A DNA stretch of 64,000 bases, taken from positions 1-64,000 of the forward strand of contig CACYLW010000003.1 in the NCBI GenBank assembly GCA_902775345.1. The letters run 5' to 3'. The translations under genes were made by a program, and so were the position numbers. The first letter of the stretch is position 1; each line of letters begins with the position of its first letter. Below, in pieces: positions 37,202 to 55,931 of the stretch. The notes under the pieces were generated by a model. That model ran no database searches and was not told where the DNA came from. It worked only from the letters and a program-made list of their open reading frames with translations. Source of the DNA: an uncultured Eubacteriales bacterium. Its GTDB lineage: Bacteria > Bacillota > Clostridia > Peptostreptococcales > Anaerovoracaceae.

Positions 37202-37230
37202 TTGTTCATACTCATAAATCGTGATAAAGT
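37202..37230 (+). promoter_or_regulatory. Likely promoter of the ilv/leu block
   Basis: TTGTTC (37202-37207), 17 nt, TAAAGT (37225-37230) with a TGA just before it (extended -10). The leader to the GTG start is only ~40 nt, too short for a T-box or leader-peptide attenuator, so control is probably at initiation. Confidence 0.55.
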
Positions 37231-37276
37231 ATTTGTTACGCATACAAGAAGAAACAATATAAGGAGGAAAACGACT

Positions 37277-38893
37277 GTGACTGGTGCAGAAGCGATGGTG
37301 AAATGCCTTGAGGCAGAGGGTATAAACCTGGTATTCGGCTATCCCGGAGTGGCGATAGCGCCTTTTTATGAAGGCCTGTATAACTCCGGAATCGAGCACG
37401 TCCTGGTGCGTCAGGAACAGAATGCCGGACATGCGGCGAGCGGCTATGCCAGGATGTCGCGCAAGCCTGCTGTATGTGTAGTTACATCCGGCCCGGGAGC
37501 AACCAATCTCATTACCGCTCTGGCGACAGCCTATGCGGACAGCATTCCTCTTATTGCCATATCGGGACAGGTATCGAGCAAGCTGCTTGGACGTGACGTA
37601 TTCCAGGAAGCTGACATGCGCGGCGCAACCAGATCATTCGTCAAGCACAGCTACCTTGTGAAGGATCCTGACGATATCCCGCGGGTCTTCAAGGAGGCGT
37701 TCTATATTGCGTCCACAGGCCGCAAGGGACCGGTCCTTATAGACATCCCGATGGATGTTCAGCAGGCTGAACTGAAAAAGCAGTTCAGTTATCCTGAAGG
37801 CGTGGTGATACGCGGGTACAAGCCTGAGATAAAGATCAACCCGATACAGCTGCGCAGGGTGATAAGCCTGCTCGACCAGGCGGAAAAACCTCTTATCTGT
37901 GCCGGCGGCGGAGTCATCCTCGGAAACGGCGAGCAGGTGATCCGCGAATTCTGTGAAAAGTTCAACATCCCTCTTGTGCATACAATGATGGGCATGGGCG
38001 TACTGCCGAAGAAGCATCCGCTCAACTTCGGGATGCTCGGCAACAACGGCAAGCCATATGCCAACAAGGCTGTGGGCAGAGCCGACCTGCTTCTGGTAGT
38101 AGGAGCGCGTATCGCAGACAGGGCCATTCCGAAGCCGGAGAAACTCACAAGAAGAGCAATAATACACATAGACATAGATACAGCGGAGATCGGTAAAAAC
38201 GTAGGACCAACGATCCCTCTTGTAGGAGATCTCAGTGAAATATTCGAGCTGATGCTTGACGGCGAAATAAGCCGCAAGGAAAACATCTGGATAGAAGAGC
38301 TTGATGAGATAAAAAGAAGTACTGTCGATAACCGCGTCTTCAGTGACAGGCTGGTGGATCCGAATCTGCTGGTGCAGAAGCTCTCGGAGAAACTTGACGA
38401 TGATGCCGTTTATGTGGCTGACGTAGGACAGAATCAGCTATGGAGCGCGGACAACTATATAATGAAGGAAGGCCGTTTCATGACGACCGGCGGAATGGGC
38501 ACCATGGGATATTCGCTCCCGGCTGCGATCGGAGCCAAGCTTGTATGTCCTGAGCATCAGACCGTTGCTGTTATAGGCGACGGGGCATTCCAGATGGCGA
38601 TGAATGAACTCGCCACAATGCGAAACAATAACGTGGATTTAAGGATATTGCTTGTGCGGAACAGATATCTCGGGCTGGTGAGGGAATATCAGCACAAGAA
38701 CTACGATTCGCATTATGAGGGCGTAAAGCTCAGCGACTGGCCTGACTACGGAAAGATCGCTGAAGCCTATGGGCTGAAATATGCTGAATGCGCATCGAAC
38801 AGCGAGCTTGATGAAAAACTCGACTGGTTCCTTGAGGGTGAAGGCGCGCGCATCATGGTGTGCGATGTTGACAGCGAAAACAATGTTAAGTAA
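37277..38893 (+). CDS. ilvB: Acetolactate synthase large subunit, copy 1
   Basis: 538 residues. ThDP enzyme joining two pyruvates, or pyruvate and 2-oxobutyrate. Catalytic Glu in RQEQNAGHAASGYAR; ThDP/Mg motif GDGAFQMAMNE ending in RNRYLG. It has GYPGVAIAPFYEGL where copy 2 has the more usual GYPGGTILYVYDAL, and LVREYQ where copy 2 has MVRQWQ, so the two are distant paralogues. The GTG start follows AAGGAGG at 37261-37267. The in-frame region upstream of the GTG is not needed. First gene of the 15-gene block; its small subunit follows after 15 nt. Confidence 0.93.
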   Translation: MTGAEAMVKCLEAEGINLVFGYPGVAIAPFYEGLYNSGIEHVLVRQEQNAGHAASGYARMSRKPAVCVVTSGPGATNLITALATAYADSIPLIAISGQVSSKLLGRDVFQEADMRGATRSFVKHSYLVKDPDDIPRVFKEAFYIASTGRKGPVLIDIPMDVQQAELKKQFSYPEGVVIRGYKPEIKINPIQLRRVISLLDQAEKPLICAGGGVILGNGEQVIREFCEKFNIPLVHTMMGMGVLPKKHPLNFGMLGNNGKPYANKAVGRADLLLVVGARIADRAIPKPEKLTRRAIIHIDIDTAEIGKNVGPTIPLVGDLSEIFELMLDGEISRKENIWIEELDEIKRSTVDNRVFSDRLVDPNLLVQKLSEKLDDDAVYVADVGQNQLWSADNYIMKEGRFMTTGGMGTMGYSLPAAIGAKLVCPEHQTVAVIGDGAFQMAMNELATMRNNNVDLRILLVRNRYLGLVREYQHKNYDSHYEGVKLSDWPDYGKIAEAYGLKYAECASNSELDEKLDWFLEGEGARIMVCDVDSENNVK

Positions 38894-38908
38894 CGGGAGG
38901 CGGATTCA

Positions 38909-39379
38909 ATGAAAGGGATCTTTTCAGTACTTGTAGAGAACAGGGACGGAGTCCTGTCTGCCGTATCGGGGCTTTTCGCGCGACGCGGCTTCAACATAGA
39001 TACTCTTGCTGTGGGTGAGACGGAAAACCACGAGATATCGAGCATGACAATAACATCCACGGGCGACCAGAGGACGATCGACCAGATCGAGAAGCAGCTC
39101 AACAAGAATGTCGATGTCATCAAGGTAAGGCGCCTGAGCGATGCCAAGAGCGTATGCCTGGAGATGATGCTCATCAAAGTGGCGTACAACCTTTCAAACC
39201 GCACGCCGCTCATAGAGTTCTGCCAGCTGATGGGCGCCAAGGTAATGAAGATCGCTCCGAAATACCTGCTGCTCGAGTATCATGCCGAGCCTGAAAACGT
39301 TGAGGATTTCATTAAGGCGATGAAAGGCTACGGTATCATCGAGATACAGAGGACAGGAACCATAGCGATGGAGAAATAA
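38909..39379 (+). CDS. ilvN: Acetolactate synthase small subunit, copy 1
   Basis: 156 residues: an N-terminal ACT domain (FSVLVENRDGVLSAVSGLFA, RRGFNIDTLAVG) plus a C-terminal regulatory domain. It binds valine in characterised enzymes and activates the large subunit. A short GGGGC/GCCCC hairpin follows at 39385-39397, before copy 2. Confidence 0.93.
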   Translation: MKGIFSVLVENRDGVLSAVSGLFARRGFNIDTLAVGETENHEISSMTITSTGDQRTIDQIEKQLNKNVDVIKVRRLSDAKSVCLEMMLIKVAYNLSNRTPLIEFCQLMGAKVMKIAPKYLLLEYHAEPENVEDFIKAMKGYGIIEIQRTGTIAMEK

Positions 39380-39434
39380 AAAAAGGGGCTGAGCCCCGCC
39401 AATAAATCAATTATAGAAAGGATACATAAAGAAA

Positions 39435-41141
39435 TTGAAATTAACCGGCGCAGAAATATTAATGGAATGCCTGCTTGAGCAGGAGGTAGATACCGTATTC
39501 GGCTATCCGGGAGGAACCATACTCTATGTATACGATGCTCTGGTCAAGTACCGCGGAAGAATAAACCATTATCTGACGGCACATGAGCAGGGAGCCTCGC
39601 ACGCTGCTGACGGCTATGCCCGCAGCACCGGCAAGGTGGGAGTGGCGTTCTCTACTTCGGGACCGGGTGCAACCAATCTTACTACCGGAGTCGCTACCGC
39701 GTACATGGATTCATCCCCGGTAGTATTTATTTCGTGCAATGTGGCTGAGAGCCTTATCGGTAAGGATTCCTTCCAGGAGGTCGACAGCACAGGCGTCATG
39801 CTTCCTATTACCAAATGCACCTTCCAGATCAGCGATGTCAATAAGCTGGCTGATACGGTGAGAAGGGCGTTCGCTATAGCAAGAAGCGGAAGGCCGGGAC
39901 CGGTATTCATCGACATACTCAAGAACGTTACTGCCGAGACGGCCGAGTATGAATTCGTTCCGAGAAAAGAGCATAAGAAGTCGGGAATGCTCGATGCTCT
40001 CTATGACCGCAACATGGCTGACCTTCACAAGCCATCAGTCGATGAAGAGGATATAGACAAGCTCATCAGCATGATAGGCGAATCAGAAAAGCCTATGCTG
40101 ATCTGCGGCGGAGGCGTTGTGAGAGGCAGGGCACACAAGGAATTCAACGAATTCGTGAACCTTATGGATGCTCCTACGGCGATCACGGTCATGGGAGGAG
40201 GAGGCATGGAAGGCCGCAACCCTCTCGCGACGGGAATGATCGGCATGCACGGCTCGCAGGCATCTAACATCGGAGTCAACGAGTGCGACCTGCTGATCGC
40301 AGTGGGCTGCAGATTCTCCGACAGGGTAGCTCTTGACCCGGAATCTTTCGCAAGCCAGGCAAAGATAGTTCACATAGACATAGACAGATCTGAGATCAAC
40401 AAAAACGTGCAGACCGACCATCATATAGTCGGTGACGCGAAAGAAGTGCTCAGGATGCTCAACGAGAGGCTTACCCAGCAGGATCATTCCAGGTGGAAGG
40501 AATACGTATTCTCATTCCCTCGGGAGACCTTCTACGATGAAGGCGGAGATACTCTGAATCCTAAGCAGGTGTGTGATACCATCGCAAGGATGATGCCTAT
40601 GGATACCATCGTCGCAACAGACGTCGGACAGCATCAGATGTGGGCGATACAGCATTTCCACTTTGACTATCCGGGCCAGCTGATCACATCAGGCGGTTTC
40701 GGAACGATGGGATTCGGACTCGGAGCTGCCATCGGCGCAAAGGTCGGCAATCCTGACAAGATGGTCATCCACATTGCGGGCGACGGAAGCTTCCGCATGA
40801 ACTGCAACGAGCTTACAACGGTCCAGCACTACGGACTGCCGGTCATCACGTTCGTGTTCGACAATCAGACACTGGGCATGGTAAGACAGTGGCAGAACCT
40901 TATATATAAGAAGAATTTCTCGGAGACAGACATGGACAGAGGTCCGGATTTCGTGAAGCTGGCTGAGGCGTACGGACTCCGCGGCCGCAGGGTCAACAAC
41001 CAGAAGGATCTCGCTGAAGCGATAGAAGAAGCGATGGCGTGCGGAGAGGGTTATGTCATAGACTGCATGCTGGATATAGACGAGATGGTAAGACCTATGG
41101 TGGGCGGCGGCAGCCACATCACCGACTTCATGAAACTGTAA
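39435..41141 (+). CDS. ilvB: Acetolactate synthase large subunit, copy 2
   Basis: 568 residues, canonical length and motifs: GYPGGTILYVYDAL, catalytic Glu in TAHEQGASHAADGYAR, GDGSFRMNCNEL leading to DNQTLGMVRQWQ. Starts at TTG after AGAAAGGA. Likely the main biosynthetic isozyme, as its sequence is closer to textbook IlvB than copy 1. Confidence 0.94.
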   Translation: MKLTGAEILMECLLEQEVDTVFGYPGGTILYVYDALVKYRGRINHYLTAHEQGASHAADGYARSTGKVGVAFSTSGPGATNLTTGVATAYMDSSPVVFISCNVAESLIGKDSFQEVDSTGVMLPITKCTFQISDVNKLADTVRRAFAIARSGRPGPVFIDILKNVTAETAEYEFVPRKEHKKSGMLDALYDRNMADLHKPSVDEEDIDKLISMIGESEKPMLICGGGVVRGRAHKEFNEFVNLMDAPTAITVMGGGGMEGRNPLATGMIGMHGSQASNIGVNECDLLIAVGCRFSDRVALDPESFASQAKIVHIDIDRSEINKNVQTDHHIVGDAKEVLRMLNERLTQQDHSRWKEYVFSFPRETFYDEGGDTLNPKQVCDTIARMMPMDTIVATDVGQHQMWAIQHFHFDYPGQLITSGGFGTMGFGLGAAIGAKVGNPDKMVIHIAGDGSFRMNCNELTTVQHYGLPVITFVFDNQTLGMVRQWQNLIYKKNFSETDMDRGPDFVKLAEAYGLRGRRVNNQKDLAEAIEEAMACGEGYVIDCMLDIDEMVRPMVGGGSHITDFMKL

Positions 41142-41154
41142 GGAGGTGCGGAGC

Positions 41155-42715
<1,561 letters not shown>

Positions 42716-42839
42716 TATCATCCACTGTCTGATGGCAGCAGGATCACAACATGCGTAGAACAAGTGGCTGCGTTCCACATCGCTCATTCCGCCCGGAATG
42801 GTCTCCGGCGCGCGGCCATAAAGATAATAAGGGTGAATT

Positions 42840-44501
42840 ATGAAATCTGACAATGTAAAAATCGGAGTTGACCGAGCGCCTAACAAGAGCCTCATGTACG
42901 CTCTTGGCCTGACGGAAGAAGAGATCAGCCGTCCGCTGATCGGTGTAGTCAGCTCATATAATGAAATAGTGCCCGGCCACATGCACCTCGACAAGATAGC
43001 CGAGGCAGTAAAGGCGGGAGTACGCGCCGCCGGCGGTACGCCGATCCTTTTCCCGGCTATTGCAGTATGCGACGGCATCGCAATGGGACATATCGGCATG
43101 AAGTATTCCCTTGTTACCAGAGACCTCATTGCCGATTCCACGGAAGCGATGGCTATCGCCCATCAGTTTGACGGACTTGTCATGGTTCCGAACTGCGACA
43201 AGAATGTCCCGGGCCTGCTCATGGCTGCGGCACGCATCAATGTACCGACCATATTCTGCGCCGGCGGGCCAATGCTGGCCGGCCGTCTGCCGGACGGCAG
43301 ACGCACCTGCCTCTCACACATGTTCGAGGCAGTCGGCGCATACCATGCCGGCAAACTGGATGAGGACGGAGTTCAGTCATACGTAGAGCATGCATGTCCT
43401 TCATGCGGATCATGCTCAGGAATGTACACTGCCAACTCCATGAACTGCCTCACGGAAGCAATAGGAATGGCGCTCCGCGGCAACGGCACCATACCTGCTC
43501 CGTATTCGGCAAGGATACGCCTCGCAAAGGAAACGGGCATGCAGATCATGAAGCTCGTAGAGAAGGATATCAGACCTCGTGACATCATGACTGAAGCTGC
43601 ATTCCACAATGCCGAAACAGTCGACATGGCGCTCGGATGCTCCACCAATACCATGCTGCATCTGCCTGCCATAGCTCACGAAGCGGGAGTCGACATCAGC
43701 TTCGACATGGCAAACGAGATCAGCGGCAAAACACCTAACCTCTGCCATCTGGCGCCTGCAGGCGATACATTCATGGAAGACCTTGAAGCAGCCGGCGGAG
43801 TATACGCTGTCATGAAGGAGCTGACAAAGGGAGACCTGCTCGACACATCGGTCATGACTGTCAGCGGAAAGACCATGGGCGAGAACATCGCTGACGCAGA
43901 CAATCTGAACACGGATATCATAAGACCTTTCGAAGATCCGTTCATGAAGACCGGCGGCATCGCAGTCCTCAAGGGAAACATCGCGCCTGACGGCTGCGTC
44001 GTAAAGCAGGCGGCAGTCCTGCCTGAGATGATGCAGCACGAGGGTCCTGCGAGAGTCTTCGATTCTGAAGAAGACGCGATCCGCGTAATCTATGACGGAG
44101 GCATCAAGGCGGGCGATGTAGTCGTGATACGTTACGAAGGCCCTAAGGGCGGTCCGGGCATGAGAGAGATGCTCAATCCGACATCAGCGATCGCAGGCAT
44201 GGGACTCGATGCGTCAGTTGCCCTGATAACAGACGGAAGATTCTCGGGAGCGACCCGCGGAGCTTCGATAGGACATGTAAGCCCTGAAGCAGCATCGGGC
44301 GGCAATATAGGTCTGGTGCATGAGGGAGACATTATATCCATAGATATCACGAATAAGACGATCGAGCTCAAAGTCTCTGACGAGGAGCTCGAAGAGCGCC
44401 GCAAGACATGGGTATGCCCTGAGCCGAAGGTAAAGACGGGTTATCTTGCACGTTACGCAAAGCTGGTAAGCTCTGCAGACAAGGGTGCGATACTGGAATA
44501 A
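42840..44501 (+). CDS. ilvD: Dihydroxy-acid dehydratase
   Basis: 553 residues. Forms 2-oxoisovalerate and 2-oxo-3-methylvalerate. Fe-S ligands appear in [10 protein letters not shown] and [19 protein letters not shown]; also [18 protein letters not shown] and the C-terminal GRFSGATRG. The 124 nt before it, the largest gap in the block, holds a small CATTCC/GGAATG hairpin but no gene. Confidence 0.96.
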
Positions 44502-44529
44502 AAAGCAATTTTCAACGACTGGAGAAATA

Positions 44530-46095
44530 ATGGAACAGGTAAAGATTTTCGATACGACTCTGCGTGACGGAGAACAGTCTCCGGGCTGCAGCATGAATCT
44601 GAGAGAAAAGATAGAAGTGGCCAGATGCCTCGAAAAGATGCATGTGGACATAATCGAAGCCGGCTTTGCGATCGCATCGCCGGGCGACTTTGAGTCGGTC
44701 AAGACGATCGCTGAGACTATCAGAGGCTGCACCATCGCCTCACTCGCGCGTTCGACCCCAAAGGATATCGACACGGCATGGGAAGCGGTAAAGGACGCTG
44801 CTGATCCGCGTATCCACGTATTTATAGCGACATCGCCGCTGCACATGGAGTACAAGCTCCGCATGAGTCCTGACAAGGTGCTCGAGAGAGCAGGCGACAT
44901 GGTCGCGTACGCAAAGAAGTACTGCTCCAACATCGAATTCTCGGCAGAGGATGCTACAAGGAGCGAACCGGAATTCCTCAGAAAGGTAGTCGAAAGGGCG
45001 ATAGCCTGCGGCGCAACCACCATCAATCTTCCGGATACAGTAGGATACACTACACCGGGAGAGATGCGTGAGCTTATCGAGGACATCAAAAACAATGTCA
45101 GGGGCGCGGAGAACGTCATATTCTCGGTGCACTGTCACAACGACCTCGGCATGGCCACGGCGAATGCTCTGGCCGGAGTGCTCGGAGGCGCAAGACAGGT
45201 TGAGTGCACCATAAACGGTCTGGGCGAGAGGGCAGGAAACACTTCTCTCGAAGAGATCGTCATGGCCATACGTACAAGGCAGGATGTCACCGGCCTTGCG
45301 ACCGGCATTGACACCACTCAGATCCACCGCGCAAGCCAGACGGTATACAACATAATCGGACAGACAGCGCCTCTCAACAAGCCTATAGTGGGCAAGAACG
45401 CTTTTGCGCACGAGTCCGGCATCCATCAGCACGGCGTGCTGGCCAACAAAAAGACTTATGAGATCATGACTCCGGAGTCGGTCGGCATCCATGTGAACAA
45501 TCTGGTACTCGGAAAGCACTCAGGCCGCCACGCGGTAGGTCAGAGGCTCGAAGAACTCGGATTCGTGCTGAGCAAGGAAGAACTCGACAGGTGCTTCGAT
45601 GAGTTCAAGACAGTCTGCGACAAGAAGAAAAACATCACTGATGCCGACCTCGAGGCTATCGTGACTCACAACACTAACATCGTATATGAAGATGAGGCTG
45701 AAGGATACAAGCTCGACTGGTTCCAGATGTCTACGAGCAACTTCACCACGGCGACATGCACTGTCAGTCTCGAAAAAGACGGTGAGAAGAAAGAGGACGT
45801 AGCTCTGGGAGACGGACCTATCGACGCGGCATACAACGCGATCGACTCCATAATCCAGCCGTCACCGCACAGCTTCGACATCTTCAACATCCACTCGATA
45901 TCCGAGGGAAAAGATACACTGGGTGATGTAACCGTAAAGGTCAATGCCTATGACAGGACGTTCACGGGAAGAGGCCTTTCGACAGACATAATGGAAGCAA
46001 GCATCAACGCTTACCTTAAGGCTCTTAACCGCATGGCCGCTTATGAGCGCAAGCACAGCGATGAGGCAGCTCCTATAAAAGCAACAGAAGCATAA
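44530..46095 (+). CDS. leuA: 2-isopropylmalate synthase
   Basis: 521 residues, with the catalytic TIM barrel (about 1-290; [37 protein letters not shown]) and the C-terminal regulatory LeuA domain (about 365-500) that carries leucine feedback control in known enzymes. The ATG is chosen after GGAGAAATA; an earlier in-frame start inside ilvD is not needed. Confidence 0.95.
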
Positions 46096-46114
46096 AAAGG
46101 AGGGACCGGAGATC

Positions 46115-47383
46115 ATGGGCATGACAATGACACAAAAGATACTTGCGGCTCACGCAGGACTCCCTGAAGTCCACGCAGGTGATCTGATAGAGGCAAAACT
46201 CGACATAGTGCTCGGCAATGATGTCACTACACCGGTTGCGATAGGCGTATTCGAAAAAGCGGGCTTTACCGAAGTGTTCGACAATGAAAAGATAGTCATC
46301 GCGCTCGACCACTACACGCCGTGTAAGGACATCAAGTCAGCGGAGCTGTGCGTCATATCGCGTGACTTCGCGAAAAAGCACGGAATTAAGCATTTCTATG
46401 ATGTAGGGACCGTTGGCATTGAGCACGCTCTGCTTCCTGAGCAGGGAATCGTCGGCCCGGGAGACTGCGTGATAGGCGCAGACTCGCATACCTGCACTTA
46501 CGGCGCCCTCGGAGCTTTCTCAACAGGCGTGGGCTCGACAGACATGGCTGCGGGAATGGCATCCGGACTCAACTGGTTCAAGGTTCCTTCAGCGATCAAG
46601 GTGGAACTGAGCGGAAAGCCGGGTCCGTGCGTGTCGGGAAAGGATGTGATCCTTCATCTGATAGGAGAGATCGGAGTTGACGGTGCTCTCTACAAATCGC
46701 TCGAGTTTGCCGGCGAAGGAGTGGCCGAGCTGTCGATGGATGACAGGTTCACCATTTCCAACATGGCGATCGAAGCCGGAGGCAAGAACGGCATATTCCC
46801 TGTAGATGACAAGACGCGCGAATACATAAAAGACAGATTCAAAAGAGAGCCGGCAGTCTTCGAGGCGGATCCGGACGCTGAATACGAAAGAGTAGTGAAG
46901 ATCGATCTTTCGACGCTCGAGCCGACTGTATCGATGCCGCACCTGCCTTCCAACACAAAGACTGTCGGAGAGGCAGCGGGTACGCGAATCGATCAGGTGG
47001 TAATAGGCTCCTGCACGAACGGCCGCATGTCTGACATGCGGGTTGCGGCATCTATCCTCAAGGGCAGAAAGGTCGCCGACGGAGTGCGCTGCATAATCAT
47101 ACCGGCCACCCAGCAGATATACCTTGAATGCATGGAGGAAGGCCTGCTGAAGGTGTTCGTCGAAGCGGGATGTGCTGTTTCGGCACCTACATGCGGACCG
47201 TGCCTTGGCGGACACATGGGAGTAATGGCTGCCGGAGAAAGAGCGGTAGCGACAACGAACCGCAATTTCATCGGACGCATGGGACATACCCAGAGCGAGG
47301 TGGTGCTGGCAAGCCCGGCCGTTGCAGCTGCATCGGCTGTTGCCGGCTGCATAGCGGATCCGCGCGTTCTGGAAGAAGCATAA
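46115..47383 (+). CDS. leuC: 3-isopropylmalate dehydratase large subunit
   Basis: 422 residues, the clostridial/archaeal-length form. 4Fe-4S ligands in GSCTNGR and [28 protein letters not shown] and RNFIGRMGH are family signatures. Pairs with leuD, which begins 12 nt later. Confidence 0.96.
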
Positions 47384-47395
47384 GGAGGGGACATC

Positions 47396-47875
47396 ATGAG
47401 AGGAAAAGTATGGAAATACGGAGATCACATCGACACTGATGTCATAATCCCTGCAAGATATCTCAACGATCCTGACCCGGCTGCACTCGCAAGCCACTGC
47501 ATGGTAGACATAGACGAGAGCTTTGCGGGCGGTGTACATGCAGGCGACATAATGGTGGGCGGCTGGAATTTCGGATGCGGATCATCGAGGGAGCATGCAC
47601 CGATCGCCATTCAGGCGAGTGGGGTGTCGTGCGTGATCGCAGCGAGCTTCGCGCGCATCTTCTACCGCAACTCCATCAACATAGGATTCCCTATACTGGA
47701 GTGCCCTGAGGCAAGCGAGGCGATAAATGCGGGAGATATCGTAAGCGTCGACACAAAGACCGGAGTCATCACTGATGAGACCACCGGTCAGAGCTTCCAG
47801 GCAAAACCGTTCCCGGAATTCATTGAGAACATTATAGAAAAAGGCGGATTACTGTCTTATCTGAAGGATAAATAA
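47396..47875 (+). CDS. leuD: 3-isopropylmalate dehydratase small subunit
   Basis: 159 residues. Swivel domain with [14 protein letters not shown] and the [13 protein letters not shown] loop. The short form pairs with the short LeuC. AGGAGG precedes the ATG. Confidence 0.96.
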
Positions 47876-47886
47876 GGAAAACAGAC

Positions 47887-48966
47887 ATGGCATTCAGAAT
47901 AGCTTTGGTTCCGGGCGACGGTATCGGCCCGGAAGTTACAGGTGCTGCAGCTGAAGTGCTCCGGGCTGTCTCGGACAGATTCGGCTGCGAATTCGAATTC
48001 AATACATACCTTGCAGGCGGCTGCGCTCTTGATGAATACGGCGTGCCTCTGCCGCAGGAGACCATAGACGGCTGCCTTGCATCGGACAGCGTTCTGCTCG
48101 GAGCTGTAGGCGGACCGAAGTGGGATGATGTCCCTAATCACATGAGACCTGAGAAAGCGCTGCTCGGACTCCGCAAGGAGCTCGGCCTGTATACGAATCT
48201 CAGACCTGCGTCCATACAGCCGGCTCTTGCTGAAGCCTGCGTGCTCAGACCGGATATCGCCGCTAAGGGATTCGACCTTATGATCGTACGTGAACTTACG
48301 GGCGGCATATATTTCGGTGAGCGCGGCAGGAATGAAGCGGGCGATGCGGCCTTTGACACGGAAGCATACAGCGTCATGGAGATAGAGAGAGTCGCAAGGC
48401 GTGCTTTTGAAACTGCAAGGAAGCGCAGGGGACATGTGACCAGCGTTGACAAGGCTAACGTGCTCGAAACATCAAGACTGTGGCGTGAAACGGTTCACAG
48501 ACTCGGAGAAACCGAGTACCCTGACGTAAGGCTCGACGACATGTATGTCGACAACGCGGCAATGCAGATAATACGCGACCCGTCATTCTTTGATGTAGTC
48601 GTTACATCAAACATGTTCGGCGACATCCTGTCAGACGAGGCGTCACAGGTGACAGGGTCCATAGGACTTCTGGCGTCGGCGTCGCTGGGCGATTCACCGC
48701 GCGGCATGTATGAGCCTATCCACGGCTCGGCACCTGACATAGCGGGAAAGGATATCGCAAACCCTGTAGCAGCGATCCTTTCGGCAGCAATGATGCTCAG
48801 GTATTCATTCGACCTGGCAGAGGAAGCGGATGCCATCGAAAAAGCAGTAGCGGACACGCTTTCCCGCGGACTCCGCACAGCTGACATAAAGGCTCCGGGA
48901 CAGGAAGACTGGATCAGTGGCAGCGAAATGAAGGCAGCCATACTTGACAGACTCGGAAGGAAATAA
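47887..48966 (+). CDS. leuB: 3-isopropylmalate dehydrogenase
   Basis: 359 residues. NAD-dependent oxidative decarboxylase. LVPGDGIGPEV opening, RELTGGIYFG, catalytic Lys in SVDKANVLETSRLWRE, Asp ligands in SNMFGDILSDEAS and YEPIHGSAPDIAG. Its stop overlaps nothing; the DUF815 ATG follows immediately. Confidence 0.96.
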   Translation: MAFRIALVPGDGIGPEVTGAAAEVLRAVSDRFGCEFEFNTYLAGGCALDEYGVPLPQETIDGCLASDSVLLGAVGGPKWDDVPNHMRPEKALLGLRKELGLYTNLRPASIQPALAEACVLRPDIAAKGFDLMIVRELTGGIYFGERGRNEAGDAAFDTEAYSVMEIERVARRAFETARKRRGHVTSVDKANVLETSRLWRETVHRLGETEYPDVRLDDMYVDNAAMQIIRDPSFFDVVVTSNMFGDILSDEASQVTGSIGLLASASLGDSPRGMYEPIHGSAPDIAGKDIANPVAAILSAAMMLRYSFDLAEEADAIEKAVADTLSRGLRTADIKAPGQEDWISGSEMKAAILDRLGRK

Positions 48967-50205
48967 ATGGACAAAAAGAATAAATTCCTCTTTTATAAGA
49001 CTCTGCAGAATTGTATTGACTGCGATGCATCTGATCTTGCCGGAAGGCTTGCGGCTTTTGCGACGGAATTCGGGCTGTCCGGAAATATATGGCAGCAATG
49101 GCTCGCGTATCTGCTCATGACTGACGACAATGCCTTCACGCTGGCTTGCGAACGGCGCGAAGTGCTGCCGGATTCTACGCTCATGCAGCTTGCGGAGCGC
49201 GATCTCAGCATCTTTATGGAACTTTTCGGAACAGAAGAAGATGATTTCGACGAAGATGAATTTCTGCTGCCTCTGATGCTGGACTACAAGGCTCCGTATG
49301 AGGGTGAATGCATCACTGAAGCAGGCCGGTGCATAAGTGAGCTTAGCGGAAGGCTGGCAGGTGCAGGGGATGCAAAGGAATTTACAGGAATCCTGACTGA
49401 CCATTATTGCAGACACGGAGCGGGAATGTACGGCCTTTACAGGGCTTTCAGGGTCGACCATTCGGCAGAAGGAGAGACGGAACTCAGGCTGGTGCCTGTT
49501 ACGGACAGTGCGGATGTGAGTTTTGACGATCTTATAGGGTATGAGTCACAGAAGAAGACTCTCAGAGACAACACTGAAGCTTTCATAAATGGCCATTACG
49601 CCAATAATGTGCTGCTGTATGGTGACAGCGGAACAGGTAAATCGACAAGCGTCCATGCACTCATGCATGAATACTCTGACCGCGGTCTCAGGCTGATCGA
49701 GGTATCAAAGCCTGACAGAGGCAGACTGCCTCAGATCCTGTCTGAGATAAAGAAACGCAATTACAGATTCATACTGTTTCTTGACGATCTGTCATTTGAA
49801 GAAGATGAAAGCGATTACAAGGAACTGAAAGCCATGCTTGAGGGCGCTCTCGAGACACGGTCCGATAAAGTGCTGATTTATGCCACATCGAACCGCCGCC
49901 ATCTTATCCGTGAGACCTGGGGCGACCGCAGCGACATGGAATACAACGAAGATGTTCACAGATCTGATACCATGGAGGAAAAACTTTCACTGGCCAGCAG
50001 GTTCGGCGTAATGATCTATTATCCTAAGCCGGGGCAGAAAGACTATCTGGAGATAGTGAGGTCGCTGGCAGCCAGAAATGGTATAGAACTTAAGGGGCAG
50101 GAACTCGAAGATGCTGCCCGCAAATGGGAGCTTCGGCACGGCGGAATGTCGGGCAGGACAGCCAGCCAGCTTATCACATGGCTGAGCGGGACTGAGAAAG
50201 AATAA
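48967..50205 (+). CDS. DUF815 AAA-type ATPase
   Basis: 412 residues. An N-terminal helical domain (1-~170) precedes a P-loop domain: Walker A GDSGTGKST near residue 220, Walker B ILFLDDLSF and sensor YATSNRRHLI. The family is widespread in bacteria and of unknown role. It begins the base after the leuB stop, so it is translated from the same message as the leucine genes, an unexpected place for it. Confidence 0.87.
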   Translation: MDKKNKFLFYKTLQNCIDCDASDLAGRLAAFATEFGLSGNIWQQWLAYLLMTDDNAFTLACERREVLPDSTLMQLAERDLSIFMELFGTEEDDFDEDEFLLPLMLDYKAPYEGECITEAGRCISELSGRLAGAGDAKEFTGILTDHYCRHGAGMYGLYRAFRVDHSAEGETELRLVPVTDSADVSFDDLIGYESQKKTLRDNTEAFINGHYANNVLLYGDSGTGKSTSVHALMHEYSDRGLRLIEVSKPDRGRLPQILSEIKKRNYRFILFLDDLSFEEDESDYKELKAMLEGALETRSDKVLIYATSNRRHLIRETWGDRSDMEYNEDVHRSDTMEEKLSLASRFGVMIYYPKPGQKDYLEIVRSLAARNGIELKGQELEDAARKWELRHGGMSGRTASQLITWLSGTEKE

Positions 50206-50231
50206 AAAGATTAGGTAAATGGTAAATCAAT

Positions 50232-51440
50232 ATGGGATCAAAAAAAGGATTATCACTTGACAAAGTATATCAGGCTTCATTCGCACTCAAGGATGTGGCC
50301 AGAAAGACAGACCTTATATATTCGCCTCACTTCAGCAACGGCAATGAGGTATATCTGAAGACCGAGAACCTTCAGGTCACCGGCAGCTTCAAGCTGAGAG
50401 GCGCATATTTCAAGATCAGCAAGCTTAACGAGGAAGAAAAAGCAGCAGGCATCATTGCGTGCAGCGCAGGAAATCATGCTCAGGGAGTAGCTCTTGCATC
50501 GACACGCATGGGCGCAAAGAGCATCATCTGCATGCCTGACGGAGCGCCTATAAGCAAGGTGGAAGCTACAAAGGCTCTCGGTGCTGATGTTCACCTGGTG
50601 AAAGGAACTTATGATGACGCATACACCTATGCATGCAAGCTGCGTGATGAGACAGGTGCGACGTTCATCCATCCGTTCGACGACCCTGATGTTATAGCGG
50701 GACAGGGAACCATCGGACTTGAGATACTCGACCAGCTCCCTGACCTGGATGCCATTGTGGTACCGGTCGGCGGAGGCGGACTTATTTCGGGTGTTGCCTA
50801 TGCCGTCAAAAAGCTTAAACCTGAGGTAAAGATCTATGGCGTTCAGGCAAAAGAGGCCGCAAGCATGGCAGACAGCCTTAAATATGATGAGCAGGTCACT
50901 CTAAAGACAGTAAGCACCTTTGCCGACGGCATTGCGGTAAAGCATCCGGGCGACCTTACTTTCTCACTTATTAAAAAGTATGTTGATGATGTCGTCACTG
51001 TCACTGAGGATGAGATCGCGGCTGCCATTCTTTCACTGATCGAAAAGCAGAAGCTTATCGCGGAAGGCGCAGGCGCAGTATCCGTTGCAGCGATGATGTT
51101 CGGAAAGATCCCGGTAGAAGGCAAAAAGGTGGTTTGCCTTGTGTCGGGAGGAAACATAGATGTAAACATACTTTCGAGAGTAATTACAAGAGGCCTTGTA
51201 ACGAGCGGCCGCAATGCCACTCTGCAGATCGCTCTTGAGGACAAGCCGGGACAGCTTGTTGATGTCGCGACTATCATAGCGGGCTGCGGAGCTAACGTAA
51301 CGGGAGTCCACTACGGACATTCCGATCCGGATACAGCCGTCACGAGCTGTGTCCTGACACTCGAAATAGAGACAAGGGACTTTGAGCAGCTGGCTGAAGT
51401 CCGTCAGACGCTCAGGGACAAAGGCTTTAATCTGATATAA
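50232..51440 (+). CDS. ilvA: Threonine ammonia-lyase with ACT domain
   Basis: 402 residues. PLP lyase making 2-oxobutyrate for isoleucine. PLP Lys in TGSFKLRGA; glycine loop PVGGGGLISG; SAGNHAQGVA. The C-terminal ~75 residues (IALEDKPGQLVDVATIIA) form a single ACT-like domain, so this is the short form common in Firmicutes rather than the long E. coli IlvA. Its reactive enamine product is the usual substrate of RidA, encoded upstream. Confidence 0.94.
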   Translation: MGSKKGLSLDKVYQASFALKDVARKTDLIYSPHFSNGNEVYLKTENLQVTGSFKLRGAYFKISKLNEEEKAAGIIACSAGNHAQGVALASTRMGAKSIICMPDGAPISKVEATKALGADVHLVKGTYDDAYTYACKLRDETGATFIHPFDDPDVIAGQGTIGLEILDQLPDLDAIVVPVGGGGLISGVAYAVKKLKPEVKIYGVQAKEAASMADSLKYDEQVTLKTVSTFADGIAVKHPGDLTFSLIKKYVDDVVTVTEDEIAAAILSLIEKQKLIAEGAGAVSVAAMMFGKIPVEGKKVVCLVSGGNIDVNILSRVITRGLVTSGRNATLQIALEDKPGQLVDVATIIAGCGANVTGVHYGHSDPDTAVTSCVLTLEIETRDFEQLAEVRQTLRDKGFNLI

Positions 51441-51470
51441 AACTATTTGATATATTAGGAGGATATAGAG

Positions 51471-52550
51471 ATGGGATACGATTTCAAAGTAACCAGAACA
51501 ACAGCACCGAAGGAGAAACCTGATCAGAGCGCTCTCGGATTCGGAAAGTACTACACCGACCACATGTTCCTGATGGATTATGACGAGGGACAGGGATGGC
51601 ATGACGGACGCATCGTTCCTTACGGACCGCTGTCCATCGACCCTGCTGCGTGCACTCTGCACTATGCTCAGATGACATTTGAGGGCATGAAGGCATATAA
51701 GAATCCTGAGGGAGGCATCAATCTGTTCCGTCCTGACATGAACGCTAAGCGTCTGCAGAACAGCAACGACCGTCTCTGCATACCGAGGATCGACGAAGAC
51801 CTTTATATCGAAGCAGTAAAGGCTATCGTAGATGCTGACAGGGACTGGGTACCGGATGCCCAGGGCACATCGCTTTACATCAGACCGTTCATAATCTCAC
51901 CGGAGCCTTCCATGGCAGTTCATCCGGCTTCAAAGTACTGGTTCATAATCATCCTGAGCCCTGTTGCTGCATACTATGAGGGCAACGACAAGGAACTCCA
52001 CGGAAGCCGCATCTGGGTAGAAGAAGAGTACATCCGCGCGGCAGTCGGAGGAACGGGCTTCGCTAAGTGTGGCGGAAACTATTCCTGCGGAATGATCGCT
52101 GCCACTGAAGCTAAGAAGCAGGGCTGCGAGGAAGTTCTCTGGCTCGACGCGAAAGAGCATAAATACGTTGAGGAAGTCGGAACATCCAACGCGTTCTTCA
52201 AGATCAACGGTACGGTATACACTTCATCACTGACCGGATCGATACTGCCGGGAGTCACACGTGACAGCGCCATAAGGCTTATGAGAAAGTGGGGCGAAGA
52301 GGTAGTTGAGAAGCGTCTTGAGATCGACGACCTCCTTAAGGCAGCGGCTGACGGCTCACTGACAGAAGCATGGGCGACAGGAACTGCATGTGTTGTATCA
52401 CCTATCGGCCTCCTGAGATACAGAGGCGAGAACTTCCCGATCAACGGCGAGAAGGTCGGCGAGCTCAGCCAGAAACTGTACGATACGCTTTACGGCATGC
52501 AGACAGGCACGGCTCCTGATATCATGGGAGACTGGGTCGTTACACTGTAA
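51471..52550 (+). CDS. ilvE: Branched-chain amino acid aminotransferase
   Basis: 359 residues, the fold-IV BCAT of the longer type. PLP Lys199 in GTGFAKCGGNY; LHYAQMTFEGMKAY, LYIRPF, and VLWLDAKEHKYVEEVGTSN. GTSN replaces the common GTMN. It completes valine, leucine and isoleucine synthesis. It ends 30 nt before the glycyl radical enzyme gene. Confidence 0.95.
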   Translation: MGYDFKVTRTTAPKEKPDQSALGFGKYYTDHMFLMDYDEGQGWHDGRIVPYGPLSIDPAACTLHYAQMTFEGMKAYKNPEGGINLFRPDMNAKRLQNSNDRLCIPRIDEDLYIEAVKAIVDADRDWVPDAQGTSLYIRPFIISPEPSMAVHPASKYWFIIILSPVAAYYEGNDKELHGSRIWVEEEYIRAAVGGTGFAKCGGNYSCGMIAATEAKKQGCEEVLWLDAKEHKYVEEVGTSNAFFKINGTVYTSSLTGSILPGVTRDSAIRLMRKWGEEVVEKRLEIDDLLKAAADGSLTEAWATGTACVVSPIGLLRYRGENFPINGEKVGELSQKLYDTLYGMQTGTAPDIMGDWVVTL

Positions 52551-52580: not shown

Positions 52581-54953
52581 ATGGCAATCACAAAAAGAGT
52601 AGAGAAAATCAGAGATAATTACGTCAATACAAAGCCGCATATCTCATATGAGCGTGCATGGAGCTGGACGAAGTCGTTTCAGCGCACAGAGGGACAGCCT
52701 CACCTGATACGTACGGCGCAGGCGTTTTACGATACATGCTGCGAACTTTCCGTAAATATATGGGAAGGCGAGCTCGTGGTCGGCACAAGCGGTGAATTCA
52801 GAAAATGCGCGATACTCACGCCTGAGTTCGGATGGCTGTGGATCGACGAAGAGATCGACACTTTCCCTGAAAGAGGGCAGGATCCGTACGATGTCACTCC
52901 GGAACAGACGGAGTTCATCAGGAAGAACATCTTCCCTTACTGGAAAGGCAAGTCCGTAGAAGAAGCCTTTCTAGCCAGGACTTCTGAAGCAACAAAGAAG
53001 ATTGGCGTGGACACCGGTTTTCTTGATACCGACTCCAAATGGCGCAATGGCATAGGCGAGATCTCTGCTGACTATATCGATGTGCTGCTCCCTAAAGGAT
53101 ACGGCGGGATACGCGCTGAAGCGGAATCCTACATGGCTGAACTCGATGAAGCGATTCCTTCGGACAAGGAAAAAATCGATTTTTACAGGTCGATGGTGCT
53201 TGTCGCGGACGGCATGATCACTCTCGGCAGGCGCTACAGCATGAAAGCTGCGGAAATGGCAGAGGCTGAGACCGATCCTGTCAGGAAAAGAGAGCTCGCG
53301 GAGATCGCTGATGTATGTTCGCGCATACCTGAGCAGCCTCCGAAGACTTTCAGGGAAGCGATCCAGTTCGTATGGTTCGTACAGCTGGGAGGCATAATAG
53401 CCGAGAATCCTCTGGCCTGGAACCCGGGCAGATTCGATCAGTACATGTACCCGTATTACAAGGCTGATGAAGAGGCCGGCATCATCGACTATGACACAGC
53501 TCTTGAACTTGTCGAGTGCCTGTGGCTCAAGTACAGCGAGTGGGCATGGACGATATCCAGGAATACCGCGAGTTTCTTTGCCGGATATACCAACTTTGAG
53601 AACCTGACAGTAGGCGGCACAAAGGTCGACGGAACCGATGCCACCAATACCATTTCATACATGGCCATACAGGCCACAAGGGAATGCATGACTCACCAGC
53701 CGACGCTGAGCTGCAGGATCCACCCTGACTGTCCTCCTGAATTCATGGAGGCCGTCACTGAACTCGTATCCACCGGATGCGGGTTCCCGGCGATCCACGG
53801 CGACAGGACGGGCTACCAGATGCTCTCGAACCTCGGCTATAAACCTGAGGACGCAAGGGACTGGAACAACTGCGGCTGCGTGGTTCCTCATTCGCGCAAG
53901 ACCTTCGAGTGGACATCCGCTGCCAGCATAAGCTTTGCGGCTGCCCTGGAATTCGCACTGAATCAGGGAAGAAGCCGACTGTCCGGAGAGCAGGTAGCGC
54001 CTGAAGAAAAGGACCCTAAGACCTTTGCTTCCATGGATGAGATCCTCGAGGCCTGGAAAAAGCAGTTCAGGTATCTTGTGCGCCACGGCGTGATAAGCCT
54101 TGTGACTGCCCAGGAGATACACCGGGAGATCGGACACAGACCTTTCATGTCAGCCTGCAATGAGTACTGCATGAAGAACGGCCGCGACCTCGTGGACGGC
54201 GGAGCCAAGTACAATATAGGACCGGTATTCACAGGTGTCGGTCTGTCTGTAATGGCAAATTCCCTTGCTGTCATCAAAAAGCTTGTCTTTGAGGATGGCG
54301 TGACCACGATGGCTGAGATCATCGATGCCATTGACAGCAACTGGGAAGGCTATGAGCAGCTCAGGGAGCTTGCGCTCGCGTGTCCTAAGTACGGCAACGA
54401 TGACGATTATGTCGATTCAATAGCGCGTGATCTCGCGGACTTCTTCTATGAGGAGGTCACAAAATACGATGATCTTTACGGGAACCATTTCGTTACCGCG
54501 TTCATGGGGATCTCGAATTATCTGCCGACCGGCAAGGTGCTCGGCGCAACTCCTGAAGGCAGACACGCGAAGGACCCTATAAACGAGGGCGTTTCCCCGT
54601 ATACAGGCAGCGACAAGTCGACCTGCCTGGCTGCTCTGCGCAGCGCAGCTAAAATGAATCACGATAAGCACAGCGGAGGTACGCTCCTTAATCTGCGTCT
54701 GAACCACGACCTTGTCGCGACAAAGCGCGGCAGAGCTAATCTGGGCGCAATGCTTCAGAGCTATTTCGCCCTGGGAGGCTTCCACGTGCAGTTCAACACG
54801 ATCTCCAACGAAGTGCTTGCTGACGCGCAGGCCAACCCTGATAAATACCGCAGCCTGCTGGTAAGGGTAGCCGGATACAGCGCTCAGTTCACCAACCTCT
54901 CAAGGGAGATGCAGGACTCGATAATGGCGAGGAATGCGCACGAAGCATTCTGA
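52581..54953 (+). CDS. Glycyl radical enzyme of unassigned specificity
   Basis: 790 residues, full length for a pyruvate-formate-lyase-type glycyl radical enzyme. The radical glycine is Gly765 in VRVAGYSAQF, 25 residues from the C-terminus. The thiyl cysteine should be Cys433 in NNCGCVVPHSRKT (a second Cys lies at 431). Known decarboxylases and diol/choline/hydroxyproline dehydratases carry Glu two residues after the Cys (GCVE or GCLE); here it is Val435. Pyruvate formate-lyase instead uses adjacent CC, which also differs. The RKT after the Cys recalls X-succinate synthases but those read CMxPG. So the chemistry is open. It sits behind ilvE in the branched-chain block, with its activase next. 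No shell-targeting extension is seen, so it is not an obvious microcompartment enzyme. Confidence 0.88.
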   Translation: MAITKRVEKIRDNYVNTKPHISYERAWSWTKSFQRTEGQPHLIRTAQAFYDTCCELSVNIWEGELVVGTSGEFRKCAILTPEFGWLWIDEEIDTFPERGQDPYDVTPEQTEFIRKNIFPYWKGKSVEEAFLARTSEATKKIGVDTGFLDTDSKWRNGIGEISADYIDVLLPKGYGGIRAEAESYMAELDEAIPSDKEKIDFYRSMVLVADGMITLGRRYSMKAAEMAEAETDPVRKRELAEIADVCSRIPEQPPKTFREAIQFVWFVQLGGIIAENPLAWNPGRFDQYMYPYYKADEEAGIIDYDTALELVECLWLKYSEWAWTISRNTASFFAGYTNFENLTVGGTKVDGTDATNTISYMAIQATRECMTHQPTLSCRIHPDCPPEFMEAVTELVSTGCGFPAIHGDRTGYQMLSNLGYKPEDARDWNNCGCVVPHSRKTFEWTSAASISFAAALEFALNQGRSRLSGEQVAPEEKDPKTFASMDEILEAWKKQFRYLVRHGVISLVTAQEIHREIGHRPFMSACNEYCMKNGRDLVDGGAKYNIGPVFTGVGLSVMANSLAVIKKLVFEDGVTTMAEIIDAIDSNWEGYEQLRELALACPKYGNDDDYVDSIARDLADFFYEEVTKYDDLYGNHFVTAFMGISNYLPTGKVLGATPEGRHAKDPINEGVSPYTGSDKSTCLAALRSAAKMNHDKHSGGTLLNLRLNHDLVATKRGRANLGAMLQSYFALGGFHVQFNTISNEVLADAQANPDKYRSLLVRVAGYSAQFTNLSREMQDSIMARNAHEAF

Positions 54954-54965
54954 TAACAGACAAAA

Positions 54966-54986
54966 GCCCGGCCTTACCGGCCGGGC
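54966..54986 (+). other. Intercistronic hairpin between enzyme and activase
   Basis: GCCCGGCC / GGCCGGGC with a five-nt loop and no T run. It may cap or process the message so that the activase is made at a lower level than its target. Confidence 0.6.
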
Positions 54987-54998
54987 ATAATTGTAAGT

Positions 54999-55931
54999 AT
55001 GGGCGTAAAAGGATACATAATGCAGATACAGCCCTTTTCGGTAAATGACGGAGAAGGGATACGTACCAATATATTCATGGCAGGATGTCCTCTCCGGTGC
55101 AGATGGTGCTCCAATCCCGAAGGCTTCGAGCAGAAAAAACTCATGGGATGGCACAAGCGAAAATGCATCGGCTGCGGTGCTTGTACTGCCGTGTGCCCGC
55201 AGGGTATAGGCATAGATCTCAATGCCGGCCGCGACAGATGCACGGCCTGCGGAGCGTGCGCTGACGCCTGTCCTGAGGAAGCCAGGACCCGCATGGTGAC
55301 TCTTATGGACGCAGATGACGTGATACGCGAGGTCCTGAAACACCGGCTGTTTTTCTCATACAGCGGAGGCGGAGTAACTTTCTCGGGCGGCGAGGCGACA
55401 TCACAGCCTGAATTCCTGGACTATCTGTCACGGGAACTGTACGATGCCGGATGCAGCATAGATCTTGAGAGCTGCGGATACTTCGATTTCGAACTTGTGA
55501 GGCCGTCACTCGAGCGGATGGACCTGATATTCATGGACCTCAAGCATATGGATCCGGCGGTGCATAAGGAATTCACAGGTGTAAGCAATGAACGCATACT
55601 TGAGAACATAGCCCGTCTGGTAACGCTTGGCCGTCCGGCAGAAAACGGCGCTGCAGGGCACGGAGCGCCGGAGACGGTCATAAGGATACCGGTGATCGGC
55701 GGAGTAAATAACAGTGAGGAAAACATAGCCGCATCCGCGGCGTATGTCCATGATGTACTGCCTGCGGCTAAAATGGAGCTGCTGCCTTATCATTCTCTGG
55801 GCAGGATAAAATATGAGGCGATAGGAATGCCGTTCGATCAGGAAGGTTTCTATACTCCGGATAAGGAAGAAATGAAAAAGCTGCGCGGTATCGCGGCAGC
55901 TCAGGGAGTAGAGATCGTTGATTACAGATAA
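54999..55931 (+). CDS. Glycyl radical enzyme activating enzyme
   Basis: 310 residues. Radical SAM CxxxCxxC motif in AGCPLRCRWCSNPE near residue 30, followed by two ferredoxin-like cluster motifs (CIGCGACTAVCP and CTACGACADACP), then the SAM-binding FSGGE region. The opening GYIMQIQPFSVNDGEGIRT is typical. It installs the glycyl radical on the preceding enzyme. The ATG at 54999 matches family length; an ATG at 55020 has the better AAAGGA site. Confidence 0.93.
   Translation: MGVKGYIMQIQPFSVNDGEGIRTNIFMAGCPLRCRWCSNPEGFEQKKLMGWHKRKCIGCGACTAVCPQGIGIDLNAGRDRCTACGACADACPEEARTRMVTLMDADDVIREVLKHRLFFSYSGGGVTFSGGEATSQPEFLDYLSRELYDAGCSIDLESCGYFDFELVRPSLERMDLIFMDLKHMDPAVHKEFTGVSNERILENIARLVTLGRPAENGAAGHGAPETVIRIPVIGGVNNSEENIAASAAYVHDVLPAAKMELLPYHSLGRIKYEAIGMPFDQEGFYTPDKEEMKKLRGIAAAQGVEIVDYR

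Follow-up and report, generated by a model that had tools for sequence, protein, structure and literature searches.

What reaction is catalysed by a glycyl radical enzyme (GRE) that lacks the glutamate found near the thiyl cysteine of GRE eliminases? This question is raised by a gene at positions 52581..54953 (+ strand) of a 64,000-nucleotide stretch (subsequently designated the window) comprising positions 1 to 64,000 of contig CACYLW010000003.1 from an uncultured Eubacteriales bacterium (assembly GCA_902775345.1). The gene has an ATG start and encodes a GRE of 790 aa; a radical SAM GRE activase (310 aa) is encoded directly downstream at 54999..55931 (+). In the GRE superfamily, the activase generates a glycyl radical, which in turn generates a thiyl radical on a Cys residue inside a buried barrel. 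Excerpts of two studies (PMC8473560, PMC7077986) describe a CXE motif shared by GRE eliminases, the Glu of which is conserved and catalytic: it hydrogen-bonds the substrate hydroxyl and, HypD excepted, is proposed to deprotonate it. A preliminary description of the window had noted that its GRE possesses neither this Glu nor the two adjacent Cys of pyruvate formate-lyase (PFL), and had suggested a new subclass with a substrate tied to 2-oxo or branched-chain acids. Here, we provide evidence supporting the first of these proposals and argue for a different type of substrate.

The window encodes a full-length glycyl radical enzyme and its activase

Judged from intact open reading frames (ORFs) and profile matches, both proteins are full-length superfamily members. 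The GRE matches the Pfam PFL-like and Gly_radical domains with 684.5 and 106.4 bits, respectively, and its AlphaFold2 model reaches a pLDDT of 92.8 and a pTM of 0.93. The activase carries Radical_SAM and Fer4 domains, the latter representing a ferredoxin-type 4Fe-4S insert, and scores 288.1 bits with TIGR02494 (cut-off 174.35). The Cys loop of the GRE reads NNCGCVVPHSRKTFE and contains the thiyl residue Cys433, followed two residues on by Val435 at the position of the CXE Glu; the codons of Cys431-Gly-Cys433-Val434-Val435-Pro-His437 occupy 53871..53891 (+). The NCGCVVPH loop thus contains neither Cys-x-Glu nor Cys-Cys, as initially described, and the adjacent Cys pair ascribed to PFL is seen in E. 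coli PflB. It does contain a Cys-Gly-Cys arrangement, Cys431 being invariant across the class defined below, and according to the alignment the protein in PDB 8id1 carries Cys-Gly-Cys at the same loop. The Gly loop reads RVAGYSAQ, in which Gly765 (codon 54873..54875, +) is the predicted radical site by alignment with HypD Gly765. Purifying selection on the GRE gene is strong (dN/dS of 0.021 and 0.018 in comparison with the homologues at loci L003 and L004, respectively; synonymous sites were saturated for four further relatives tried). These values, together with fixation of the Cys motif in 66 of 66 relatives, show that the ORF is not a product of chance.

Proteins carrying CGCVVPH form a class of their own

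Relatives were collected by a scan of 84,980 species, each represented by one genome, using six patterns, of which DWNNCGCV overlaps the Cys loop but excludes Val435. The best 80 of 577 relatives, corresponding to 79 distinct loci, were kept, so that further class members may be missing from this set. Within it, identity to the window protein, taken along the best segment, showed a gap: 68 loci reach at least 51%, and the other 11 show 36–39%. CGCVVPH is present in all 66 loci of the former group that cover the Cys loop (fragments L065 and L074 lack it and were left out of this count), which answers the question of conservation in close homologues raised at the outset. All 11 loci of the latter group carry Glu two residues after the Cys.

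For alignments and trees, a different set of 66 class rows was used, which is not identical with the 66 loci of the motif count. It comprises proteins longer than 700 aa, with L106, L108, L109, L112–L114, L126 and the window added, and omits L002 and L082–L105; L107, L110 and L111 were unused. In L033, L046, L063 and L074 the simple ORF caller placed the GRE on the wrong strand, and these loci are absent from the operon list. The GRE ORF is split in the assemblies of L032, L064, L071 and L075, reflecting a frameshift or a sequencing error; these ORFs were taken unchanged or dropped by length. In an 86-row tree the 66 class members form one group with a support of 100, and in a more careful 33-row tree the 18 class members included do so with 100/99. 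Across the 66 rows, 223 positions are at least 97% conserved, and Cys433 and Gly765 are each present in 66/66.

None of the listed NCBIfam GRE models reaches its cut-off with the window GRE. The best match is CutC (TIGR04394; 688.4 bits, cut-off 1050), and the PFL2-3 subfamily (632 versus 678), HypD (NF043068; 543.3 versus 1100), sulfopropanediol dehydratase (613 and 482 versus 1000), aryl-acetate decarboxylase (HPAD and IAD, NF033715 and NF033718; 337.2 and 369.7 versus 1150 and 1100, respectively) and PFL models (TIGR01255; 130.2 versus 994.2) fall short as well. Because of the identity gap, the fixed motif, monophyly and these sub-cut-off scores, the proposal of a new subclass is supported: the window GRE belongs to a distinct, apparently uncharacterised class of these oxygen-sensitive enzymes. 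That CutC is the best-scoring model might alternatively be taken to indicate a degenerate CutC or HypD paralogue without distinct function. We regard this as very improbable: 688 bits is far below the CutC threshold, a dN/dS of about 0.02 and the 223 conserved positions do not fit decay, and an activase of one cluster is retained in 63 of 69 neighbourhoods (the window's own counted).

Searches of the literature found no paper pairing 'GCVVP' with 'glycyl radical', and no title or abstract among the matches listed names the class, coverage of the GRE literature being incomplete; no paper found on the host genus mentions 'glycyl radical'. A sequence-network study from 2017 may include the class as an unnamed cluster.

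The class is sparsely distributed. It was detected in 21 of 47 genomes of the host genus (rows of at least 89% identity), in 14/197 genomes drawn from the family (E-values up to 1e-220) and in 4/391 drawn from the taxonomic class (up to 1e-240), and the exact DNA motif was found in 5/398 genomes drawn from the phylum (reversed control: 0). Each of these counts includes the window's own genome, and the sets overlap. Further members occur in Cohaesibacter, Oleispirillum and metagenome-assembled genomes of Synergistaceae, Deltaproteobacteria and Treponema, and the class has therefore probably moved between phyla. Carriers include known amino-acid fermenters as well as anaerobes from gut, rumen and sludge, so the compound formed may matter as a fermentation metabolite. 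One member, 60.6% identical to the window GRE, is encoded behind an XRE-type regulator gene in Acetoanaerobium noterae (L126, NZ_CP154629.1); this circular record of 2.63 Mb is chromosome-sized, yet it is filed as plasmid pTPELB2.

The class groups with CutC and an N-methyl-cis-4-hydroxyproline dehydratase homologue

Foldseek searches with the predicted model returned CutC, glycerol dehydratase, propanediol dehydratase and N-methyl-cis-4-hydroxyproline dehydratase as nearest structures (TM 0.96–0.98; identity 32–38%), with TM 0.97–0.98 for CutC. In the 33-row tree, the class forms one clade, supported by 100/100, with K. pneumoniae CutC and the protein of locus L076, which matches PDB 8id1 (title: N-methyl-cis-4-hydroxy-L-proline dehydratase) at 1183 bits. 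Among the 223 class-invariant positions, CutC and L076, one sequence each, share 150 and 151, respectively. The branches of CutC, L076, L079 and YbiW are long, which makes the exact position of these four proteins uncertain. Strict conservation of a class that groups with CutC yet has lost the CXE Glu suggests a reaction that the known mechanism does not cover. On the practical side, best-hit annotation ignoring the cut-off would label these proteins as CutC, that is, as trimethylamine producers.

The genome from which the window derives encodes a second GRE (L001, G000:C1:73829-76180), which is a true HypD (NF043068: 1434 bits, cut-off 1100); the organism can therefore probably ferment hydroxyproline.

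The predicted pocket keeps residues for a cation and lacks those for a hydroxyl

The position of the CXE Glu is Val in 66/66 class rows. Among 20 reference rows, 19 have Glu at this position and PflB has Ser. An excerpt of PMC12838924 names the residues surrounding choline in D. alaskensis CutC, with Asp216 beside the trimethylammonium head, and we mapped these residues onto the class through the aligned K. pneumoniae CutC (L127). Numbers of L127 in the alignment are one higher than those of D. alaskensis CutC; the ten residues named below agree in type between the two CutC proteins, and Thr334 remained unmapped. Asp216 corresponds to Glu160 (codon 53058..53060, +), which also aligns with HypD His160. 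Phe389 and Phe395 correspond to Phe333 and Phe339, Thr502 to Thr445, and Ile700 to Ile644. Tyr208 is replaced by Ser152, Met487 by Cys431, Glu491 by Val435 and Leu698 by Met642. All nine assignments hold in 66/66 class rows. The tenth residue, Tyr506, corresponds to position 449, which is Asn in 53 rows, Ser in 12 and Thr in one. Of the reference rows, 17 have His at position 160; the exceptions are CutC with Asp, L076 with Glu and PflB with Arg. Hence, besides the class, only CutC and L076 carry an acid here. By this comparison of sequences, the class appears to retain the aromatic wall and the acid for a cation and to give up residues handling a hydroxyl, from which we infer that the substrate is a cationic amine lacking a hydroxyl in the customary position.

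A tentative mechanism and the evidence weighing on it

We tentatively favour, with confidence a little short of even, the following reading: the window GRE and its activase would constitute a pair of a distinct class, marked by CGCVVPH and Glu160, which acts on a cationic amine or an amino-acid-like zwitterion and probably uses non-ketyl chemistry. The activase would install the glycyl radical on Gly765, from which the thiyl radical on Cys433 would arise in the buried barrel. The small substrate would place its ammonium group at the site of choline, against Phe333/Phe339 (CutC Phe389/Phe395) and Glu160 (CutC Asp216). As Val435 occupies the position of the CXE Glu, a base for a substrate hydroxyl would be missing beside the Cys, and ketyl-type elimination is therefore probably not the reaction. 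Instead, abstraction of a hydrogen adjoining the amine or a carboxylate would lead to cleavage of a C-N, C-heteroatom or C-C bond, Glu160 being the principal acid/base in the vicinity, and the product would enter general amino acid fermentation. The map of pocket residues makes this mechanism testable by a handful of substitutions. Hydroxylysine, taurine, phosphoethanolamine, proline betaine and glutamate-mutase-type substrates were also raised, from chemistry alone; nothing in the analysis supports them.

Several points weigh against this proposal. First, the tree gives no clear sister group: CutC next to the class is supported by 86/60, the alternative pairing with L076 survives the AU test (p-AU 0.417), and each of the two is a long branch represented by a single row. 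Second, the mapping of pocket residues relies solely on aligned sequences, with K. pneumoniae CutC read in D. alaskensis numbering. Third, HypD has His at position 160 and nevertheless acts on an amine, which means that amines do not require an acid there. Fourth, apart from the activase there is no near-universal partner gene, and neighbourhoods differ so widely that no substrate is deducible from context. Finally, Glu160 could take over the role of hydroxyl base from the opposite wall.

The last point leads to a rival explanation, according to which the class would consist of ordinary GRE eliminases of a hydroxyl-bearing amine (a hydroxyproline-like compound or an amino alcohol) with a relocated base, Glu160 reaching the hydroxyl from the opposite wall. 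Invariance of Glu160 and its alignment with HypD His160 fit this idea, the more so as His160 is located 2.5 Å from the CXE Glu of HypD according to an excerpt of PMC7077986, and the closest relatives of the class are eliminases. However, the N-methyl-hydroxyproline dehydratase homologue L076 possesses both Glu residues, which indicates that Glu160 alone does not replace the CXE Glu, and the equivalents of Tyr208 and Tyr506 are lost in the class too. We consider a relocated base rather unlikely, albeit a serious competitor of the amine reading with non-ketyl chemistry.

Linkage to branched-chain amino acid genes is local

Curated models and gene coordinates confirm the described location of the window GRE in a 15-gene series, i.e. 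ilvB, ilvN, ilvB, ilvN-like, ilvC, ilvD, leuA, leuC, leuD, leuB, a DUF815 ATPase gene, ilvA, ilvE, GRE and activase. The block upstream of the GRE (ilvBN-ilvBN'-ilvCD-leuACDB-DUF815-ilvA-ilvE) extends from 37202 to 52550 (+); the ilvE stop is at 52550 and the GRE starts 30 nt later. In the window, the GRE gene is probably co-transcribed behind ilvE by virtue of its position only. The linkage of this block to the GRE is, however, not generally conserved. In the host genus, ilvE is directly upstream in 12 of the 16 loci that have testable upstream DNA besides the window, and these 12 GREs are 93–96% identical to the window GRE. The other four loci are preceded by lysC in two cases (its aspartate kinase identity was confirmed by a curated model), by an NAPRTase-like gene as judged by eye in one, and by none of five tested genes in one; copies of 88–91% identity follow genes other than ilvE. 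In L104, belonging to another genus and encoding a GRE of 88% identity, the upstream gene is whiA-like by eye. Within the stretches examined, ilvC matches near a GRE occurred only in the window and at four Sedimentibacter-type loci. ilvC and ilvB lie upstream of the GRE in L025 and likewise in L021 and L022, where two genes of opposite orientation intervene; in L031 they follow the activase on the same strand at a distance of about 0.75 kb. ilvC was found in 17 of 20 carrier genomes searched and gave no match in the other three (those of L028, L036 and L050), for which completeness is not given.

Since ilvE is limited to copies of at least 93% identity and ilvC to few loci, the ilv linkage is local to two lineages, in which it takes two different forms. 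Thus, the linkage expected among relatives exists in the 12 genus loci and the four Sedimentibacter-type loci and is absent from many others; nor were the homologues seen to cluster with any characterised enzyme whose substrate is established. In view of the sibling loci with other upstream genes and the ilvC-negative genomes, we reject the branched-chain genes as a guide to function across the class, and the place of the GRE beside them looks like a local accident.

Accordingly, the preliminary assignment of a substrate related to 2-oxo or branched-chain acids is not supported, and an enzyme of this kind, such as a PFL-like lyase or a decarboxylase of acids derived from branched-chain amino acids, appears quite improbable. 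In its favour are the 12 genus loci that, like the window, have the GRE directly behind ilvE, ilvC-ilvB within at most five genes of the GRE in the four Sedimentibacter-type loci (co-directional behind the activase in L031), ilvA at most eight genes away in L021 and L022, and Liv-type ABC transporters near the GRE in L034 and L042. Besides the confinement, within the genus, to copies of at least 93% identity and the lack of an ilvC match in 3/20 genomes, the enzyme is not PFL-like (TIGR01255: 130 bits versus 994). Leu-like genes near the Anaerotignum copies (L016–L019), which had been considered in this context, were rejected: their products are 24–40% identical to the Leu proteins of the window, they lie on the opposite strand in L016 and L019, and they look more like genes for isocitrate dehydrogenase, aconitase and a citrate-synthase-type enzyme.

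A GC-rich hairpin of 8 pairs at 54966..54986 (strand unassigned) lies within the 45-nt gap separating GRE and activase genes. On the + strand it folds better than most shuffled sequences (z -2.43); the terminator scan reports it for the - strand only, and terminator-like sites in the region number five versus a shuffled mean of 2.6. The hairpin may tune the GRE:activase expression ratio or mRNA stability.

Three further features of the window were noticed. The branched-chain block starts with two acetolactate synthase pairs, ilvB-ilvN and ilvB-ilvN', arranged head to tail (37202–41715). The DUF815 AAA+ ATPase gene (48967–50205) is located between leuB and ilvA, as is also the case in L003, L004, L005 and L055. 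Finally, positions 9331–11853 encode a protein of 840 aa in which NAD(P)-disulfide oxidoreductase, rhodanese, TusA and DsrE domains are fused.

Other gene neighbourhoods of the class

An XRE-cupin regulator is encoded near the GRE in 30 of 69 neighbourhoods and a GntR/FCD regulator in nine, in six of them directly upstream. A few lineages encode small transporters and hydrolases of the M20 or Amidohydro_3 type within or next to the GRE operon. In Dethiosulfatibacter (L047), a tight run comprises genes for a YfcC-like transporter, two enolases resembling MenC/N-acylamino-acid racemase, an M20 hydrolase, a class III CoA-transferase, the GRE and the activase. In Sporomusa, Lucifera and kin (L048, L051, L052), an M20 hydrolase gene adjoins the activase gene, followed in L051 and L052 by a two-gene Gate-type transporter. 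In L028 and L029, genes for a DUF5058 protein, a membrane partner and M20 enzymes follow downstream in the same orientation, and in genome G369 (L133) DUF5058, a partner judged similar by eye and an Amidohydro_3 enzyme are encoded upstream on the opposite strand. Altogether, 19 DUF5058 copies are present in 11 of 22 carrier genomes, three of them no farther than about 4 kb from the GRE and in three separate parts of the tree. Simple arithmetic predicts fewer than 0.1 such cases by chance, a figure to be read with the fact that the pairing had been seen in two loci, and then in a third, before the count was made. Single loci offer further associations: L041 has a LamB/YcsF gene and neighbours resembling parts of 5-oxoprolinase on the other strand, and branched-chain-type ABC transporter genes are found near L034 and L042. 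Genes for adenine deaminase, TRAP, Yhf-like proteins, PFOR, RidA and ribokinase near single or few loci were read by eye and set aside, as no recurrence could be trusted.

These neighbourhoods suggest, but do not show, that a small amine or amino acid is supplied through uptake and deacylation. A more specific version of the amine reading is that an amine or amino acid bearing no hydroxyl is cleaved or rearranged by radical chemistry, Glu160 serving as main acid/base in the pocket, and that some hosts feed the enzyme by taking up and deacylating N-acyl amino acids. We consider this version possible but doubtful; if true, the enzyme would represent the first GRE amino acid lyase or mutase.

Two of the loci bear on yet another explanation, radical addition or mutase chemistry, i.e. 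an X-succinate synthase (XSS)-like reaction or a carbon-skeleton rearrangement, in which amides of the Cys loop would form an oxyanion hole for a carboxylate. In L039 the activase gene runs into genes for glutamate mutase and methylaspartate ammonia-lyase, and in L047 the class III CoA-transferase gene directly precedes the GRE. A precedent exists, as according to an excerpt of PMC12358834 XSS enzymes hold one fumarate carboxylate in an oxyanion hole of the Cys loop, and Val435 would free that space. However, the class groups with eliminases in the tree, and BSS (4pkc) scores 296.7 bits versus 661.2 for the best CutC entry. The same excerpt places an Arg 15 residues after the thiyl Cys of XSS enzymes (BSS Arg508, MASS Arg492); by ungapped count, with BSS not aligned residue by residue, this position is Ala448 in the window GRE. 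Moreover, no accessory subunit was noticed, although no search was aimed at such subunits. Addition or mutase chemistry of this kind is therefore improbable in our view.

A second GRE gene was observed in Clostridium sp. OS1-26 (L020, 15166–19086) about 3 kb downstream of the CGCVVPH-type gene. It encodes 902 aa and is accompanied by a 92-aa ORF and its own activase gene; by eye, it looks like a decarboxylase with a small subunit.

Comparison with known glycyl radical enzymes

CutC (TIGR04394; PDB 5fau, 5a0u) shares with the class the GRE fold (TM 0.98, 37% identity), a common clade, the residues Phe389, Phe395, Thr502 and Ile700, and an acid at the ammonium position. It differs by Glu491, Asp216, Tyr208 and Tyr506, which are Val435, Glu160, Ser152 and Asn/Ser449 in the class. 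No microcompartment genes were noticed beside the class GREs, though no search was aimed at them. The N-methyl-cis-4-hydroxyproline dehydratases (PDB 8id1, 8iof) are connected to the class through L076 in the 100/100 clade and by Glu at position 160; L076 additionally shares Asp151, Lys153, Asn281, His406 (also present in CutC), Gly411 and Trp428. In contrast to the class, these enzymes keep the CXE Glu (L076, 8id1), and identities by Foldseek are 38% and 32%. HypD (PDB 6vxc) likewise is a GRE with an activase, acts on an amine and has its Phe340 equivalent kept in the class, whereas His160, Glu436, Ser334, Asp339, Tyr450 and Thr645 are replaced and Asp278 falls into a gap. PflB (TIGR01255) resembles the class in its Gly loop, its thiyl Cys and the absence of a CXE Glu, but has adjacent Cys-Cys, Ser at the Glu position and only 21% identity. 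Finally, the aminoacyl radical enzymes, as described in an excerpt of PMC11528403, are likewise GRE-like proteins of unassigned reaction and varied genomic context, found largely in Eubacteriales; they replace the radical Gly, however, which the class described here keeps in 66/66 members.

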